40,726 nucleotides of DNA from Ignavibacteriota bacterium (GCA_016209795.1 JACQVI010000045.1:1-40726), one strand, 5' to 3'. Shown: positions 29,680 through 40,454, numbered from the stretch's first letter. The notes: a model not told the origin generated them from the letters alone. A program made the numbers and translations.

Positions 29680-31932
29680 TTATCGAACAAGAATCATCTT
29701 CTTTGTACTGATGCCGTCTGACGTTATAAGCTGAGAAAAATATATTCCGCTGGGAAGTCGCCTACCTAAATTGTCCTCTCCGTCCCAGATGAATGCTTGC
29801 GCATTCCCCGGTTGGTTATCATACGTTCCCGCTGATAAGTAACCAAGATCCATTTCACGCACCTTTCTTCCAAGGATATCATAGATGATGATGACAACAT
29901 TTGTTGGGTTGGCTAATTGGAATGGAAGATATGTACTTGGGTTAAACGGATTAGGAAAATTTGTTAGTAACCTCGTTACAATTGGAATTGTAGGACGTGG
30001 CGGATTCACCTCGATAGTTTCTCCACCGCCATCGACGGTCTTCAAGATGGCACCATTGCTACCGACCACCCATCCGATAGATGCATCTACAAAACGTACC
30101 GCATAGAGATTACGGTTTGTGCCACTCCATAAAGCTGACCAGCGTTGTCCACCATCCACCGATCTAATTATTGCGCCGTTGTTTCCCACAGCCCACCCCA
30201 CGCTATCGTTGGCAAAATAGATAGCATGGTAATCGAAGCGAAATGGAGTTCCTTGCTGTAGCCAGGTAATGCCCCCGTTCGTCGTTTTTAAGAAGCTGCC
30301 TGCGCGACCGGCAGCAAAACCTGTGGTTGACGAGATGAACCTGATCGAATTCAGTCGCAACGCTGGTTGAGAATAAGAGGAAATCCACACACTGCCTCCA
30401 TCGGTACTTTTGAAGATCCTCCCAAATCCTGCTGAGTCACCTGCAGCCCACAGCGTATCGGCGTCAATGAACTGAAGAGAAGTAAATGTTATCGATGAAT
30501 CATGCGGGACAATTTCCCACGTACCACCACCGTTCGTAGTTCGGAAGATTGTTCCCTTTTCCCCCATGATAATTCCGTTTAACGGAGTGAAAAATTTTAT
30601 GTCAAACAATGCAGAAGAGGTTGGAAGTCGGCTCGGCATCCATGTCGTGCCACCATCCACCGTGAAAAGAACTGTTCCGCTATCCCCCACAGCAAACCCA
30701 CTATCTGCGTCGAGAAATTCTACTGCATGTAACCTTACAGTTGTGTTACTTCGCTGGAGAATCCAACTTTCGCCACCATTACTTGAGGCTAAGATGATTC
30801 CACTTTCGCCGACAGCCCAGCTCGTTGATGTATCCAATGTGCTCAGACCTCGCAGGTTCGGTGTGGGACCACTCGCATAGGAATCCCATGTAATCCCTTG
30901 ATTGGTTGTTTTCCACATCCGACCGTTTGTTCCGACAATCCATCCAACGGGATCCGCCTTCAACGAGATGCCCTGAAGATCGGTTGACGAATCGAGGGTT
31001 GTTGTAGACCAACGTGTCCCACTATTCGTTGTGCGAGCGACTGCACCTTCGTTACCAATGACAATGCCGGTGAACGAATCAAAAAAATCCAAGTCGGAGA
31101 CGGCTGTTTTCGGAAAGATTAGTGAAGACTCCCAGGTCTTTCCAGTATCGATCCTTCCAATCGTTCTAAAAACAAAGCCAAATCTACTCGCAGTCCACCC
31201 GATAAGCTCGCTCGTCAGGTGCAGTCCAACAAGATCTCCAGGCACCGGGAGATCAATCAGTTCCCAAGAGGATCCGCCAGTGCTCGTTCTCAAGATGGTA
31301 TGATCCGCACCGGATGACAGACAAAATTGTCCGGTAACCGCCTCGACGCGAAACAGGTTAGCCGAAAAGTCCGACGATTGTCTTTGCCAGAGGTTACCGC
31401 CGTTGGACGTTCGTAAGATGAGACCATTTTGACCCACAATCCATCCCACATTTCTGTTAACAAAATGAACGCCATAGAGTGCCTCCGACGAATTCCCGAA
31501 CGGGCGTTCCGTCCAGCTATTACCACCGTTTTCGGTGCGAAGAATTTTCCCATTGTCTCCCACGGCAAAGCCAGCCAACGTGTCGGTGAAGAAGATCGAT
31601 CGGAGATGGATACGAACATCTTTAATACCGGATTGCATACTCCAGTTCCTCCCTCCATTGGTCGTCAGCAGGATTGTGCCGGCAGCCCCGACTGCTACAG
31701 CTCTCCTTCGATCAACTGTAAAAACACCGTAGAGATCATTGCCTTGGGGCAGAGGATTCTGCCAGAACCAACCTGAGGGCGGAAGAGGTTCGGATGAGAT
31801 TGATGAAAAGATCCCTTGTCCCATAGAATACCTCGGTTGCAGAAACACTGCCATGCAGACAGCGCTAATCTTCATCAAGCAGCTATGCACATCTATCCGA
31901 ATGGCTTTCATTGTATGCGGTCTGTGCCCCAT
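29680..31932 (-). CDS. T9SS-secreted Ycf48-like repeat propeller protein
   Basis: A 750-residue protein. ATG 31932 lies 10 bases after the stop of the upstream paralog, so coupling favours it; ATG 31911 and 31875 (MKISAVCMAVF) are alternatives, and the last would give a more typical signal peptide. From about residue 50 to 640 there are about 13 repeats of 42-44 residues with GWAVG..G.I..T.DGG..W and L.AV.F, the pattern of Ycf48-like propellers. In photosynthetic organisms Ycf48 assists photosystem II assembly, but secreted FCB relatives like this one are unlikely to share that job. The sorting domain is 655-750 (FPNPFNPST, ending KKMILVR), with Phe in place of the usual Tyr. It and the 31943 product share the start of the mature region (W.W.NP.PQGN.(L/M)Y.V), pointing to tandem duplication. 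Confidence 0.86.
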   Translation of the reverse strand: MGHRPHTMKAIRIDVHSCLMKISAVCMAVFLQPRYSMGQGIFSSISSEPLPPSGWFWQNPLPQGNDLYGVFTVDRRRAVAVGAAGTILLTTNGGRNWSMQSGIKDVRIHLRSIFFTDTLAGFAVGDNGKILRTENGGNSWTERPFGNSSEALYGVHFVNRNVGWIVGQNGLILRTSNGGNLWQRQSSDFSANLFRVEAVTGQFCLSSGADHTILRTSTGGSSWELIDLPVPGDLVGLHLTSELIGWTASRFGFVFRTIGRIDTGKTWESSLIFPKTAVSDLDFFDSFTGIVIGNEGAVARTTNSGTRWSTTTLDSSTDLQGISLKADPVGWIVGTNGRMWKTTNQGITWDSYASGPTPNLRGLSTLDTSTSWAVGESGIILASSNGGESWILQRSNTTVRLHAVEFLDADSGFAVGDSGTVLFTVDGGTTWMPSRLPTSSALFDIKFFTPLNGIIMGEKGTIFRTTNGGGTWEIVPHDSSITFTSLQFIDADTLWAAGDSAGFGRIFKSTDGGSVWISSYSQPALRLNSIRFISSTTGFAAGRAGSFLKTTNGGITWLQQGTPFRFDYHAIYFANDSVGWAVGNNGAIIRSVDGGQRWSALWSGTNRNLYAVRFVDASIGWVVGSNGAILKTVDGGGETIEVNPPRPTIPIVTRLLTNFPNPFNPSTYLPFQLANPTNVVIIIYDILGRKVREMDLGYLSAGTYDNQPGNAQAFIWDGEDNLGRRLPSGIYFSQLITSDGISTKKMILVR

Positions 31933-34254: not shown

Positions 34255-36810
34255 TCATCGTGGGGTGAGAATAAAATTCTTATTTTCAATCACATCTCCT
34301 TCTGGTTTTGCCATCACATCAATCTCATAGGAAACGGGTTGAGCGCTATACCCCAGTAGTTCCAGTTGAGCCTCGTCCAAAGCGATGCGGTACTTCCCCG
34401 GTGGAACGGTCGAAAACTCGTACTCTCCTGTGGAGAACGTGGAAGTAGCGTATTTCCTCACCATCTTTTCTTCACGAGACTTCATGATAACATTTATGCC
34501 TGGAGCAGGATCTTCCCTGCCGTCTTTAGTAACGACTGCACCACGCACGATGCCGCCTATAACCAGTGGGATGTCCACGCGCTTAAGATAGTTCGGTTCT
34601 GCCAGGACACGAACGCTGCCACGTTCTGGCACCAGGAGAGGATTTTCGAGCGTTTTCATATCGACGTAAACATCATACTCTTCATAGTTCAACAGTCGTC
34701 CCAATCTCAGCGACGTTATTGGTATGGCAGTCGATTGGGTCTGTCGCGTGAAATTGGCAAGAAAGATCCGTGATTTCTCAAGTGTTTCCTCTCCCTTATC
34801 TGGAATACCGTTGCCATTAGCATCATAAAACGGGTTTATGACGATACCACCGTGCCCTGGTAAATCTATTCGGTTGTTAAAATACAAATATGGTGTTGTG
34901 GGATCGAAACTTATTGTTCCAGTCGCACCTGTAGAATACTCGTACTGACCGTGACCGGTATTGGCAGCACCGGCTTGTACCCTCAGATACGGAAGACGAT
35001 AGCGGATCTGTATCCCAACATGATAAAACTGTACGACAGGTATACGACGGTATGAAAGCTGAACGGTCAAACCGGCTGCGAAACCTCTGGCAACATTGGC
35101 TTCGAATGACTCGATACGGTGATGCAGATGATTGTACCCTGTCTCCATCTGCAGAACGACTCCGGCTGGCATGAATACCCCTAACGATGCGATAGACTGA
35201 TTAGAGAGTGTGACGAGGGATCCGTCAGGATTGATCCGCCACGTTATCTGACTGCTTAAACTGGGATTCACCGCTCGCGATCTGTACAGGATGGCACCTT
35301 GCAGCTCGCGTAGAACATCGTTCTCAAAACCCGTTTGACTGGCAAATGCATTAGCCCAGAGACCCCGAATAAGAGGTTGACGCAGGATAAGCTCGAGACT
35401 GTTATTCATTCTGGCCGGATTGAAAAAAGCATTCCGGGAAAACTGCGTTCCTATGAGTGTGAATTCGCTCAAGGAAGGGAAAATCCAATTCAATCCCACA
35501 CGAGAAAATGCCGACGGTGCAACAAGAGCATTAACAATCAGACCATAAAATAGTCGGGATGTCGCAGTCAGCGCAGGATACACTTTCGTTCTGACTGATG
35601 AGAGATTAAAATAGTCAAATTTTGTACCGAGCGTAAGGCCGGAGGAAACTCCCCATTGGAGGGAGCCTGATGATGCCGCCACCTCGGATCGATTGCTGGT
35701 TCTCCCAGCCGTCAAGGAGTATTCGATCTCTCCAGGCGGGATCAACGTCGTGGGCAAGTTAAGCCGGTAGCGCAATACGCGTTCCTGTCCCCACTGGTCA
35801 TACCCACGCAGCTCGATGTTACCCAGACCATAGATAAGGGGAATCTCAAATTGATAATTTCCTTCTTCGTCGGTTCGTTGGTATCGAAATCCTGTTGCGA
35901 TGTCATATCCTTCGATGTCGACATTTGGTTCCAGTTGTCCGCGGAACACCTCTGGTGAAAAAAAATATCGGGCTTGGAGAGGTCGATTCGTCACCTCGAC
36001 GCCGGTAACAAGCGTCGGCCGCAATCCCGCAGTCGTGATCTCGCCGATTCGAATTTGCTGCACGGCTTTGGTGTTTAAGAATGGATACCGGAATTGAGCA
36101 CGGAAGTCACTTCTATCCACTCCGCGGGCACGTGTTCCGACGAGCCGTGCCGTGAAGTCTCCACCTAACAGCTTGGACCCGAACGTGAGATAGTAGCGCG
36201 TACGAGGGGGATTGACCGTCGAAAAACGAGAGAAGACGTTATAGCCGAGGCGCCCAGTACCGACAAAGGAAAATCTCCGACCTATGTAAGCCTCGGGCTC
36301 CGGGATGATCTCGCGCCTCGCAAGTTGTCTCTGCAATCTGATCTGGCGTTGCCTCACAAGAATGGCTGGCAAATCGCGAACGAGCGGCAATTCAACGGTC
36401 AAGCGGCGAGGCTTATAACGAAAATTCAAGCCAAAAAAATTATTGATGAACCCGGTGCGCAAATACAGCCGACCTTCGCTCACGATAAAGTCATCAGAGC
36501 TGAGGCGAAATACTTTATCGGCGATAGATGCCTCTCCAGTTTTACAATCGATCACATACGTCGTATCAGTTGTTTTAAAAAACCCTTCCAGTCTCTGGTC
36601 TTCCGCATCAAATTCGTTTTTGATCCCGAGGAATGTGAACACAGTATCCACAGGAAGGTACGCATTCTGATCCTTGACAACTATTTCCAGAGTTTTCCTC
36701 CCCAAGCTCGCAACCCTCAATTCCACGGGAATTTTTTCCCAAAGCTGTTGCGCTACAATGCTTCCCATACTCCACCCAAACCATATCAGACAATAAATAG
36801 CCTGCCTCAT
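34255..36810 (-). CDS. usher-like outer-membrane protein (divergent FimD/PapC type)
   Basis: An 851-residue protein; ATG 36810 with AAGG 6 bases upstream, overlapping the 3' end region of the chaperone gene. Signal peptide MRQAIYCLIWFGWSMGSIVA. Residues 25-135 form an N-terminal domain (VELRVASLGRKTLEIVV, AYLPVDTVFTFLGI) like that of fimbrial ushers. About 160-660 consists of alternating hydrophobic/polar strands typical of an outer-membrane barrel, interrupted at about 311-353 by a plug-like segment (VDIEGYDIATGF, NIELRGYDQWGQE). Then GHGGIVINPFYDANGNGIPD (about 655-675) and a carboxypeptidase-regulatory-like beta domain (about 751-815, PPGKYRIALDE). Ushers receive chaperone-subunit complexes and thread the fibre through the outer membrane. 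Size and neighbours (chaperone 10 bases upstream, pilin-like gene before it) support this. There is no T9SS sorting domain, as expected for a barrel protein. Sequence divergence leaves an unrelated barrel role possible. Confidence 0.72.
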   Translation of the reverse strand: MRQAIYCLIWFGWSMGSIVAQQLWEKIPVELRVASLGRKTLEIVVKDQNAYLPVDTVFTFLGIKNEFDAEDQRLEGFFKTTDTTYVIDCKTGEASIADKVFRLSSDDFIVSEGRLYLRTGFINNFFGLNFRYKPRRLTVELPLVRDLPAILVRQRQIRLQRQLARREIIPEPEAYIGRRFSFVGTGRLGYNVFSRFSTVNPPRTRYYLTFGSKLLGGDFTARLVGTRARGVDRSDFRAQFRYPFLNTKAVQQIRIGEITTAGLRPTLVTGVEVTNRPLQARYFFSPEVFRGQLEPNVDIEGYDIATGFRYQRTDEEGNYQFEIPLIYGLGNIELRGYDQWGQERVLRYRLNLPTTLIPPGEIEYSLTAGRTSNRSEVAASSGSLQWGVSSGLTLGTKFDYFNLSSVRTKVYPALTATSRLFYGLIVNALVAPSAFSRVGLNWIFPSLSEFTLIGTQFSRNAFFNPARMNNSLELILRQPLIRGLWANAFASQTGFENDVLRELQGAILYRSRAVNPSLSSQITWRINPDGSLVTLSNQSIASLGVFMPAGVVLQMETGYNHLHHRIESFEANVARGFAAGLTVQLSYRRIPVVQFYHVGIQIRYRLPYLRVQAGAANTGHGQYEYSTGATGTISFDPTTPYLYFNNRIDLPGHGGIVINPFYDANGNGIPDKGEETLEKSRIFLANFTRQTQSTAIPITSLRLGRLLNYEEYDVYVDMKTLENPLLVPERGSVRVLAEPNYLKRVDIPLVIGGIVRGAVVTKDGREDPAPGINVIMKSREEKMVRKYATSTFSTGEYEFSTVPPGKYRIALDEAQLELLGYSAQPVSYEIDVMAKPEGDVIENKNFILTPR

Positions 36811-36820
36811 GCTGGACCTT

Positions 36821-37651
36821 TTAAGGAATTTCTATATTCATCGAGAGCCGAACCGGTGCTGTTGGAATTTGCTTTTTGTTTTTCCCATCCGACACAATTT
36901 CAACCTGAACCGTATATCTGCCCGTCGGAATCGCGTCGCGAGAAAATTTCTTCTCCAGGAAGAACGACTTAAAGACGACCAGGGGAAATGTTGACGTACT
37001 GACCACTTTACCCTCTTCATTCTCAAAACGGATTTTCCATCTGCCAGCGAAAGACGCATTGCCGGTTCTCGTGAGATTCATGGAACAGACAATATCCGCA
37101 TGTGAAGGAGTGACCCTGAAATCCGTCACCTCTACTCCGGTTGAAACGTTACCCTTACGGTAGTGCACCGGCAAGCCGATGGCTTGTGTCATGACGAGTC
37201 CCGACTTACCCTTCCCCTGTCCGGCTGCCGCGGTTGGAGGCGGCTTCCGTGGAACCCCCGTTACGATAATACGTGCCCAGTATTCGCCATCAGGAAGTCC
37301 GGGGGGCGGATAGGCAACCAAACGAACGGTCTGAATTTCGCCAAACGGTAATATGAATCGCTCTGGATACGGCTTGATCCACTCAGCCGCCGAGGTTGGC
37401 TCGCCGGAAAGTGTATCCATAACGATGGCCGGTTTGCCGCTATCATCTGAGATGACGTAGCCGTACTTTACTTCGACGCTCACCTCGAGATCCTGTGATC
37501 CTGTATTATTCACCCTGAGCGGAACCATTCTCTGAGATGCATCCAGGACGATATACCGCGGGTAAACGCTAAAGCCGGCAAAAAGACTCGAAGTAAAACT
37601 AAGGAAAATGATAAGGGCGAAAACAGTATGCAACCTCAACCGATGATCCAT
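36821..37651 (-). CDS. PapD-like periplasmic pilus chaperone
   Basis: A 276-residue protein with signal peptide MDHRLRLHTVFALIIFLSF..., cleaved near residue 25. The first Ig-like domain (27-130) has the chaperone layout: an edge strand YPRYIVLDASQRMVPLRVNN, then WIKPYPERFILPFGEIQTVR and PPGLPDGEYWARIIV. The last two correspond to the 'P..F.L..GE.QTVRL..P..LPDGEYR' signature of archaic/alternative chaperone-usher chaperones. A short Gly/Lys/Pro linker (about 133-150) precedes a second Ig-like domain (150-276). Such chaperones donate a strand to fold subunits in the periplasm and deliver them to the usher. The gene sits 10 bases before the usher-like gene and just after the pilin-like gene's terminator. 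GAGG is 15 bases upstream of the ATG, a long spacing that may mean modest translation. Confidence 0.78.
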   Translation of the reverse strand: MDHRLRLHTVFALIIFLSFTSSLFAGFSVYPRYIVLDASQRMVPLRVNNTGSQDLEVSVEVKYGYVISDDSGKPAIVMDTLSGEPTSAAEWIKPYPERFILPFGEIQTVRLVAYPPPGLPDGEYWARIIVTGVPRKPPPTAAAGQGKGKSGLVMTQAIGLPVHYRKGNVSTGVEVTDFRVTPSHADIVCSMNLTRTGNASFAGRWKIRFENEEGKVVSTSTFPLVVFKSFFLEKKFSRDAIPTGRYTVQVEIVSDGKNKKQIPTAPVRLSMNIEIP

Positions 37652-37704
37652 ATAACAATCTTTTTCCTCTGTTCAAAAAATCTGTTGATCAAGGTCTATT
37701 ATAC

Positions 37705-37748
37705 AAAAAAGGTAGCTTGCAGGTATATCGTCAAGCTACCTCTTTTTT
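37705..37748 (-). terminator. strong hairpin terminator between pilin-like and chaperone genes
   Basis: GGTAGCTTG (37711-37719) and CAAGCTACC (37732-37740) form a perfect 9-bp stem with a 12-base loop, followed on the minus strand by six T (37710-37705); six T also lie on the plus side (37743-37748). It is 61 bases past the pilin-like stop and 53 before the chaperone start, so partial read-through would give far more pilin than chaperone and usher. A TATAAT (37703-37698) follows directly but lacks a well-spaced -35. Confidence 0.85.
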
Positions 37749-37801
37749 GTGCTGCAAACGACACCCTTCAGTGCGCAGCGAGCACTGAGAGCAACCAATC
37801 A

Positions 37802-38368
37802 CTATGGTGTTGGTGTAATGTACTGCGCAGTGACAATCGCCTGACCTTCGTAGGTGATTTCCTCTAGGAGATTGGTCGGGGTACAAATATCGGGGCTTAC
37901 CCATACCAAAATTTCCCCGCTAAACAGGTTCACGACCTGTGGACCACTTTGGGGATTAAAGAAGACGAATGGGCCCCCATCCGGTCCCCAGGCTGCGGAG
38001 GTACCATCATAGCTTAAGCTGAGCGGCGGGGCTTCTAGAGCTGCGCCACCTAACAGTGTCGGGACACTGATCGACACCTGCACATCAGCACCCGGGTCGC
38101 CTGTGATTGTTGCTCCATCGTTGGTGTAAGCTTCCTCACCCGTTTTGAGCGGATTGATGTAGGTTCCGTCCCCCAGGGGATCTGCAGGGATATCGTAGCA
38201 CGTGCCCGGCGCTAAGCCCTCAACCGAAAACCCCCCTTCTCCAACCTCCAATGCCGCCGTGAGCACCGAGACCTCAAACGGATAGATCGCCTGTTGTACC
38301 TGGGCGAGCACGCTATTGATGCCACCTGCAGCAAGCACAATAAGCATAACGAACATAAAGCGTTTCAT
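37802..38368 (-). CDS. secreted pilin-like subunit (DUF4402-like)
   Basis: A 188-residue protein. ATG 38368 is chosen because AAAAGGAG lies 5 bases upstream and a clean signal peptide (MKRFMFVMLIVLAAGGINSV, cut near A22) follows. The mature part of about 166 residues is all beta: VSVLTAALEVGEGGFSVEGL at the start, TITGDPGADVQVSISVP in the middle, and ITYEGQAIVTAQYI at the end. This opening/'GdpGA.v.vs.p'/final 'G.a.VTa.Y' layout resembles DUF4402-type subunits carried by some chaperone-usher-type loci. Cysteines in GTCYD and DICTP could form a disulfide. There is no sorting domain, so it is not T9SS cargo. Being followed by a terminator and then chaperone and usher genes fits a major, highly expressed subunit. 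The subunit assignment rests on context plus weak motif likeness. Confidence 0.68.
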   Translation of the reverse strand: MKRFMFVMLIVLAAGGINSVLAQVQQAIYPFEVSVLTAALEVGEGGFSVEGLAPGTCYDIPADPLGDGTYINPLKTGEEAYTNDGATITGDPGADVQVSISVPTLLGGAALEAPPLSLSYDGTSAAWGPDGGPFVFFNPQSGPQVVNLFSGEILVWVSPDICTPTNLLEEITYEGQAIVTAQYITPTP

Positions 38369-38504: not shown

Positions 38505-40454
38505 CTACTTCACGAGCATCATCTTCTTGACGCTGGTGTAGAGTCTCTCCGTCGCATTGCCGTCCTCGTCAATGCCCTCGACAGCGATACGATAGAAGTA
38601 GACGCCCGAACTCAACTCTGATGCATCGAACTCAACATCGTTCAAACCCTCAGTGAATTCCTCACGATCTGCTAAGGTTGCCACTTCCTGCCCGAGCATA
38701 TTGTACACCTTCATCGTGACAATAGCGTCTTGAGGGAGTGTGAACTCAATCGCGGTAGCCGGGTTGAACGGGTTCGGATAGTTCTGACGCAGCGAGAACG
38801 CCTGAGGCAGCGATGCGATATCCACAAAGGGTCTTCGCTCTGGCGCAGGTGGTATTACCGCTGTTGGGCGATACAAATGTTGAGATAGACCAACAGCGCT
38901 ATGACCTGTGAACTTCGTGTGTCCGCCCTGGGGTGAAGGTGGACTCTTGGTGCCGCCGGCAAAGCTGATCGTATCTAATGGACCGTCGAACTCCCGATTA
39001 ATCTCCTGAATAACTGCCAGGAGTGATGTTGAGTCACCTTTATCCAGCCCGAGGCATGCTAAATAATTATCAGCCTTTGCTGCAATCTGCCTTACCGTCT
39101 GTCCATCGAACAGATTGCCAGGATTATTATATTTCATGTCGCCGAATAATCCCGGCATTTTATCCTCATCACTCATGGCTATGTTCGCCTTGAGGGCAAT
39201 TGCCTCAGCAAGCAGAATGTTGTTATGCTTCGCTGGAGGTGCGCTCTTCTGGGGTTTTGTCCACGGTTTTCCACCAATGGTGTTCAGACAGGAGGGACCA
39301 CCTGTGTGCATACCGGTCTTATCCTTCAAGGTCTTGTAAATGGCAGCCGCTTTCTTCGGATGATACACCTGATTCGGTGCACGACCAACATATAGACCCG
39401 AGTCGATATAAATCTGACCACCTTGTTGGTAGACTTCATCCAATGCGTTCCAGACATTTGGCATTGGAGGATATAAGTGGCTCGTGCCAGGATCTGGCAG
39501 TGCAGTCCCCTCACCAATCTCATCGACGCCGCTTGTCCATTCATAACTTTTGATCGTCAGCTCTTTTCCTTTATTTCCTTGGGCGTAAATGATCACAGAG
39601 CCACTATCTGCAACGTTACCGGTAAAATTCCATTCCTTCGGCTTTGCCGGATCTTTCGGACCTCCTGACATGCCGCCGGAGATACTTAAAATGGGATCTC
39701 CGAACGCGTCTTTTCGAACTTCCTGACTGAATTTGAGGTGCAGATCGAGGGCTTTCTGTCCTGTGTTATTGACTAGTGTGAAGGTGGCTTCACTAAACTT
39801 AGCCTTTTTCTTAATACCCTTTCCTTTGGCTTCTTTTCCCTTTTCGGTCTTTGCAAGGGCTAACGATTCAGGCGGGAACGAGCGCATCAGGTACGCATCG
39901 TACGTCATGATCTCCACTTTCTGATTGATATCGCTGTAAAGCGGATGCTGGTAGGACGACGCCGTTGTCATATCGAAATAGACATCGGTGGGGATATCCG
40001 GAGGATCGGCAAGGACGTGCAATATCCAGCCACCGCCACCTATGCTACCGATATTCGGGTCCCAGGAAAACATTACACCGCCTGCGCCCTCAGATGACGA
40101 TTTAAACCTGACGTAGAACGTATCGGATTGTGTGTCTCGCACGAGATCGCGGATATCGACGTACGAACCTCCAGAACGACAATCGCCGGGACTGCGACCA
40201 ATTAATCGTGCATCGAAGACGCCATCAGGTCCCGGGGGCGGTGCTTCAATTTCCGCAGGGGTGATACTGCTATCATCAAGACAGTAAGTTGCTCCCGGGT
40301 CGGTCCCAACGACTAAATCCGCTTCACCCTCTTGCCCTCCGGAGTTATCGGAAACGTGAATCGTTGTGTTCCACCCTTGAGCCAATACTGCCTGGGTCAG
40401 CAAACACGAAAGACCCAGACACAGTAACAAAGAAAACATTTTGAACAAGTTCAT
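38505..40454 (-). CDS. T9SS-secreted protein next to the chaperone-usher-like locus
   Basis: A 649-residue protein from ATG 40454 with GAGG 6 bases upstream; signal peptide MNLFKMFSLLLCLGLSCLLT, cut near A25. Residues 28-185 form a complete LPPxPP-type module (VGTDPGATYCLDDSSI, PPPGPDGVFDARLIG, SGGSYVDIRDLV, GVMFSWD). A lysine-rich stretch (about 203-222, EKGKEAKGKGIKKKAK) leads into a region aligned with the 23481 product (TLVNNTGQKALDLHLKF, KPKEWNF, NKGKELTIKSYEW, QVYHPKKAAAIYK). The shared module follows: KHNNILLAEAIALKAN (about 410), FGDMKYNN, FDGQTVRQIAAKADNYL and INREFDGPLDTI (about 491-502). The sorting domain is 553-649 (NYPNPFNPAT, ending KKMMLVK). It has its own terminator and lies just upstream of the pilin-like gene; a role as an associated surface protein or adhesin is conceivable but unproven. 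Confidence 0.86.
   Translation of the reverse strand: MNLFKMFSLLLCLGLSCLLTQAVLAQGWNTTIHVSDNSGGQEGEADLVVGTDPGATYCLDDSSITPAEIEAPPPGPDGVFDARLIGRSPGDCRSGGSYVDIRDLVRDTQSDTFYVRFKSSSEGAGGVMFSWDPNIGSIGGGGWILHVLADPPDIPTDVYFDMTTASSYQHPLYSDINQKVEIMTYDAYLMRSFPPESLALAKTEKGKEAKGKGIKKKAKFSEATFTLVNNTGQKALDLHLKFSQEVRKDAFGDPILSISGGMSGGPKDPAKPKEWNFTGNVADSGSVIIYAQGNKGKELTIKSYEWTSGVDEIGEGTALPDPGTSHLYPPMPNVWNALDEVYQQGGQIYIDSGLYVGRAPNQVYHPKKAAAIYKTLKDKTGMHTGGPSCLNTIGGKPWTKPQKSAPPAKHNNILLAEAIALKANIAMSDEDKMPGLFGDMKYNNPGNLFDGQTVRQIAAKADNYLACLGLDKGDSTSLLAVIQEINREFDGPLDTISFAGGTKSPPSPQGGHTKFTGHSAVGLSQHLYRPTAVIPPAPERRPFVDIASLPQAFSLRQNYPNPFNPATAIEFTLPQDAIVTMKVYNMLGQEVATLADREEFTEGLNDVEFDASELSSGVYFYRIAVEGIDEDGNATERLYTSVKKMMLVK

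Follow-up and report, generated by a model that had tools for sequence, protein, structure and literature searches.

Chaperone-usher pili, for which three classes are recognized, are usually treated as a mostly proteobacterial trait. In the type 1 and P pili, which depend on FimC-FimD and PapD-PapC, the outer-membrane usher is a plugged 24-strand barrel with two C-terminal domains, the chaperone consists of two Ig-like domains, and the genes run in the order subunit, chaperone, usher. A penultimate Tyr and a Gly at position -14 from the C-terminus are known marks of chaperone-usher pilins, the plug of PapC sits between barrel strands 6 and 7, and the N-terminal domain of FimD recruits chaperone-subunit complexes. 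Strand exchange also assembles Bacteroidota surface fibres of another kind, the type V pili of Bacteroidia (FimA, Mfa1); to our knowledge, that pathway uses neither an usher nor a PapD-like chaperone. Chaperone-usher systems outside the Proteobacteria are already known, the archaic type occurring in Cyanobacteria and Deinococcus-Thermus (PMC4654587). Proteobacterial plasmids, such as those of Polaromonas and Sphingopyxis, carry operons annotated as encoding a DUF4402 protein, a 'molecular chaperone' and a protein with a 'carboxypeptidase-like regulatory domain'.

Here we analyse a locus from an Ignavibacteriota bacterium, contained in a stretch of 40,726 nucleotides (GCA_016209795.1 JACQVI010000045.1:1-40726), the whole of which is referred to below as the window. 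It shares the architecture of the usher, the two-domain chaperone and the gene order with the type 1 and P pili and, at the level of its family, both pilin marks. It departs from them in that the ushers of the family are not matched by PF00577, have another N-terminal domain and, in many relatives, end in SPOR or TPR domains, while the subunits are of the DUF4402 type and a T9SS-sorted protein is often encoded next to them. With the archaic Csu pili (CsuC-CsuD), the family has in common the chaperone fold, a conserved Pro, an IPVF-type strand and occurrence beyond the Proteobacteria, but its ushers form a separate branch and its subunits are not spore-coat-U proteins. The Polaromonas and Sphingopyxis plasmid operons belong to the family of the window by usher tree and profile, and have the same gene order; they differ in that the usher is annotated by its last domain only and that no T9SS cargo is annotated there.

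Three consecutive genes between T9SS-sorted neighbours

The subunit, chaperone and usher ORFs are consecutive on the minus strand (38368-34255), and only 10 bp separate the chaperone stop from the usher start. The features of the locus, in window coordinates, are:

38505..40454, minus strand: T9SS type A sorting domain protein of 649 aa (PF18962, 38.1 bits, and TIGR04183), directly upstream of the subunit gene
37802..38368, minus strand: putative fibre subunit (pilin), DUF4402-like, 188 aa with a signal peptide; ATG start preceded by AAAGGAG
37705..37749, minus strand: hairpin resembling an intrinsic terminator, with a T-run (-22.1 kcal/mol, z -4.3)
36821..37651, minus strand: PapD-like periplasmic chaperone, 276 aa, containing LPDGEY
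34255..36810, minus strand: outer-membrane usher, 851 aa (AlphaFold2 model and structure matches to FimD/PapC)
36388..36738, minus strand: N-terminal periplasmic domain of the usher, residues 25-141, Cu_amine_oxidN1-like (PF07833, 25.1 bits, above the cut-off)
34906..36264, minus strand: usher barrel, strands at residues 183-274 (6) and 362-635 (18), from DSSP on the model
35755..35964, minus strand: usher plug domain, residues 283-352, between barrel strands 6 and 7, from DSSP on the model
34258..34851, minus strand: usher C-terminal domains 1 (about residues 654-750) and 2 (about residues 752-851), from the model, PF17210 and PF13620
31943..34198, minus strand: YCF48-like beta-propeller protein with a T9SS sorting domain (PF14870, PF18962), directly downstream of the usher
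29680..31932, minus strand: second YCF48-like protein, with a FlgD_ig/T9SS-like C-terminus (PF14870, PF13860)

An earlier note, made from the sequence alone, had proposed that a subunit, a chaperone and an usher lie in order on one strand, without T9SS sorting domains of their own and flanked by T9SS cargo. The coordinates bear out this arrangement, and in a Pfam search the sorting domain is absent from all three products and present in the genes on either side. The three-gene order is also kept in relatives. In the nearest of them (G172), the entire block of T9SS protein, subunit, chaperone, usher and two YCF48-like T9SS proteins is syntenic, with identities of 34% for the 649-aa protein, 39-41% for the subunit, and 50% and 41% for the first and second YCF48-like proteins, respectively. 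The part of the block available in a second relative (G255) is syntenic as well (38% for the first YCF48-like protein). Within the window, positions 2695-31932 hold a run of large minus-strand genes (636-1503 aa), nearly all T9SS-sorted at the C-terminus, several of which are mutually homologous across their C-terminal halves.

Predicted structures and family hallmarks

In single-sequence Pfam searches, no window protein matched PapD, Usher or DUF4402, and single-sequence searches of PDB sequences, the usher and subunit among the queries, returned nothing meaningful. The first call must thus have drawn on features to which the standard profiles are blind; the profile check proposed with it fails for the window proteins themselves, and their membership is supported instead through structures, profile comparisons and relatives.

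An AlphaFold2 model of the usher, built from an alignment of 31 sequences (pLDDT 86.8), contains by DSSP six barrel strands, a plug, 18 further strands (24 in total) and two C-terminal beta domains. FimD is likewise a 24-stranded barrel with a plug, NTD, CTD1 and CTD2 (PMC12122975). When the model was compared with the PDB by Foldseek, ranks 1-18 were all FimD or PapC (E 2e-27 to 3e-13); the first unrelated match fell 17 orders of magnitude short of the best, with large barrels of other kinds (LptD and BtuB, for example) at only about 1e-6 to 1e-5. VIA-align gave Z scores of 19-23 against ushers and of at most 17.6 against other barrels, over residues 176-848; its alignment did not cover the N-terminal domain, for which no alignment to FimD was obtained. 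A structure search of BFVD with the usher produced matches at the domain level only. The 851-residue usher-like barrel of the earlier note is therefore upheld, the outcome that would have refuted it, a model without a 24-strand barrel and plug, not having materialized. The C-terminal regulatory-like beta domain that it had also remarked upon is present, as an SdrD_B/CarboxypepD_reg-like domain, but is no addition: it is the second C-terminal domain normal in ushers. Many relatives have SPOR or TPR domains appended to the usher C-terminus, which fits a periplasmic location of this end.

The chaperone model (AlphaFold2, pLDDT 90.6) comprises two Ig-like beta-sandwich domains, and its top Foldseek matches are CsuC, CfaA and FimC. 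The PapD-like assignment, noted together with the LPDGEY motif, thus stands, and the absence of an Ig fold, which would have contradicted it, is not what the model predicts. With VIA-align, Z is about 14 against these chaperones and equal against Enterococcus WxLIP, another two-Ig protein, so that the fold alone is not decisive; the identity of the chaperone is decided by gene context and by PapD_N matches in relatives (8 of 29 chaperones, best 1.2e-6). The proline that does not vary across the superfamily is found here as Pro96, and all 29 aligned chaperones have it. Archaic chaperones have, in CsuC numbering, Pro59 and the carboxylate-binding Arg89, 30 residues apart (PMC4654587). Here the family differs from the archaic Csu type: the window chaperone has Trp at Pro+30, within a YWxR motif, and Arg two residues on, and most members have either W or F followed by Arg in the same way, with only a few retaining an archaic-like YRSH. 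Weak matches to the T9SS sorting-domain model were seen in 5 of the 29 chaperones (best 5e-5; for example, G286:C33:126861-127070); we rejected these Por_Secre_tail matches as true sorting domains, as they probably reflect the shared Ig-like fold.

The fold of the subunit is not among the features established by computation, and its assignment is less direct. Pfam gives no DUF4402 match for the window subunit, and the DUF4402-like character claimed for it survives only by way of profile-profile comparison and relatives. Aligned with a disjoint set of DUF4402-type subunits, the window subunit and its ortholog gave an hhalign probability of 88 and a score of 38, against a maximum of 7.7 in 40 column shuffles, and DUF4402 is matched by 24 of 35 family subunits. 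Spore-coat-U models matched none of these 35 at E 0.01. Searching the genome of the window for DUF4402 yielded no match, but the control gave no signal either. Among 252 distinct family subunits, the penultimate Tyr is found in 161 (64%, versus 8% in other similar-sized ORFs) and Gly at -14 in 146 (58%). Both marks are carried by the ortholog in the nearest relative; the tail of the window subunit runs four residues beyond the usual after the penultimate-Tyr position.

Occurrence in FCB genomes and the T9SS neighbourhood

With the window usher as query, usher relatives were found in 59 of the 296 genomes sampled from the phylum, so a system that the earlier note had considered unusual for an FCB genome is in fact common in this group. 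A contig search with a closer family alignment found it in Balneolaceae (Aliifodinibius, Gracilimonas, Rhodohalobacter, Balneola), Cyclobacteriaceae (Algoriphagus, Cecembia, Aquiflexum), Bacteroidales, Neomarinimicrobiota and Ignavibacteriota. By comparison, PF00577 has no match in the genome of the window, and none of 395 genomes of the phylum passes its curated cut-off; its four sub-threshold matches all fall in genomes of one Balneolaceae-type family (f30), three of them coinciding with loci that the window usher had also detected. A literature search revealed no description linking chaperone-usher systems with FCB taxa, and another no mention of DUF4402; both results are weak, subscription journals lying outside the coverage. 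Two contigs labelled as archaeal and actinobacterial (L092, L094) also carry FCB-family ushers and are probably mis-binned or mislabelled MAG contigs.

In 83 loci of relatives, 1.5 kb or more of sequence is available upstream of the usher; the chaperone gene directly adjoins the usher gene in 72 of them and lies one gene further away in another 8, placing it within two genes in 80. The subunit-chaperone-usher order is far beyond chance. A typical operon of the relatives contains three to five subunit genes, a chaperone and an usher, compared with a single subunit gene in the window. In Balneolaceae (L038:11089-14293 and the corresponding block in others), a conserved gene set encoding a FliG-domain protein, a TPR protein and a MotA/ExbB-type proton channel lies downstream of the usher.

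The proximity to T9SS cargo is not peculiar to the window. A same-strand gene lies directly upstream of the pilins in 58 non-redundant loci, and in 29 of these it is T9SS-sorted, whereas entire genomes of 3.2-4.8 Mb contain about 5-144 such genes. At the highest genome-wide rate (4.2%), the binomial tail for this count is ~1e-24, although relatedness among the loci means that they are not independent. In one 4.8 Mb genome (G286), a T9SS-sorted gene, one of only five above the cut-off, sits in the fibre operon. Several of the upstream proteins in Balneolaceae, Neomarinimicrobiota and Cyclobacteriaceae are large and adhesin-like, with Invasin_D3, Big_1, MBG, laminin-G or Gly-rich domains, and T9SS-sorted genes take the same place in Bacteroidales and in the family of the window, which has them on both flanks in conserved synteny. 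These observations leave room for a mixed appendage, in which the chaperone-usher fibre and the neighbouring giant adhesin-like T9SS protein would be joined or cooperate. We hold this to be possible, though only tentatively: half of the loci have no T9SS gene upstream, many Balneolaceae have a different gene of 345-500 aa there, adjacency is not interaction, and genes for surface proteins cluster anyway. The genome of the window, moreover, encodes SprA and 144 T9SS-type C-termini, which makes linkage in this one window weak evidence. Somewhat more doubtful is the narrower proposal of an FCB two-pathway appendage, in which a DUF4402 fibre would be joined extracellularly to a giant adhesin that is encoded in the same operon, exported by the T9SS and not a tip pilin. 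A functional link between the T9SS and chaperone-usher assembly is plausible but unproven. The 345-500-aa Balneolaceae genes were considered as members of the system and set aside, one of them being DUF4900/bactofilin-like and apparently part of a separate cluster.

Branch position, assembly and the intergenic hairpin

A maximum likelihood tree was built from the classical ushers of K-12 and one of Variovorax, six archaic ushers and the FCB-centred family; the archaic sequences came from rhizobial and other plasmids and were recognised by their spore-coat-U neighbours. The tree splits classical plus archaic ushers (SH-aLRT 100) from the family of the window (100), which includes plasmid copies from Polaromonas, Sphingopyxis and Pseudoalteromonas. 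Usher profiles score 405 between archaic and classical, whereas the family of the window scores 159 to classical, 121 to archaic and 41 to EcpC. Profile-profile probabilities for the family are 98.8 against K-12 ushers, 97.9 against archaic ushers and 19-30 against EcpC, the sole alternative usher compared. Together, the split and the profile scores set the family apart from both classical and archaic ushers, as a separate branch with its centre in the FCB group. That it forms a class of its own beside the alternative ushers is not established, few alternative and archaic sequences having been compared. Ushers of three loci from one family of the Bacteroidota phylum (L051, L052 and L058; f24) group with the proteobacterial plasmid ushers, and the f24 chaperones seen retain the YRSH form, which suggests horizontal transfer.

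The chaperone, which is closest to CsuC by Foldseek and whose profile lies nearer to archaic (71) than to classical chaperones (55), would be compatible with a diverged archaic (sigma) chaperone-usher system. We consider this improbable, as the tree sets archaic and classical ushers together opposite the family, the usher profiles divide in the same way, and the family subunits are of the DUF4402 rather than the spore-coat-U type.

Our preferred reading, held with high confidence although no experiment supports it, is that these genes specify a pathway of the chaperone-usher type for secretion and assembly, belonging to an FCB-centred branch. It rests on the computed folds of usher and chaperone, the gene order, the conserved hallmarks, the branch position and the hairpin. 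Once in the periplasm, the exported subunit would be bound by the two-domain Ig-like chaperone, which would lend it a strand; the complex would then be delivered to the outer-membrane usher, whose periplasmic domains would swap the chaperone for the N-terminal strand of the next subunit, and the fibre would grow out through the pore of the plugged barrel. Both donor-strand complementation and exchange are inferred, as is the fibre on the surface. Counting against this assembly pathway are the usher N-terminal domain, which is unmatched to that of FimD and resembles a different Pfam domain; the window subunit, with its tail four residues longer and itself unmatched by DUF4402; and the Trp that replaces the archaic carboxylate-binding Arg, with Arg two residues on. 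That a barrel with Ig-like neighbours merely secretes or anchors proteins and builds no fibre is most unlikely, for although the single subunit gene of the window could specify a short or capsule-like polymer (the F1 antigen is built from one subunit), the plug, the size of the barrel, the fold of the chaperone and the C-terminal marks of the pilins are all in keeping with chaperone-usher assembly, and most relatives have several subunit genes.

A further branch that is missed by the standard usher model, in about a fifth of the sampled genomes of the Bacteroidota phylum, changes both the census and the evolutionary picture of these systems. The FCB bacteria would gain an unstudied adhesion fibre, and one may ask whether they combine two routes of export across the outer membrane. 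For mechanistic work, the family offers ushers in which the N-terminal domain is a different one and SPOR or TPR tails occur. Current annotations list the plasmid copies as 'carboxypeptidase regulatory-like domain', 'SdrD B-like domain' or 'hypothetical' proteins, and one new profile could correct many of these entries.

The hairpin between the subunit and chaperone genes is probably a leaky terminator, which would determine how much subunit is produced relative to the machine; leaky termination is itself inferred, and would allow many subunits to be made for each assembly machine. A hairpin lies between the same two genes in the nearest relative (z -4.5), and subunit-chaperone gaps of 60-300 bp contain one in 44 of 52 cases, compared with 2 of 45 gaps between subunit genes and 29 of 247 among the remaining same-strand gaps.
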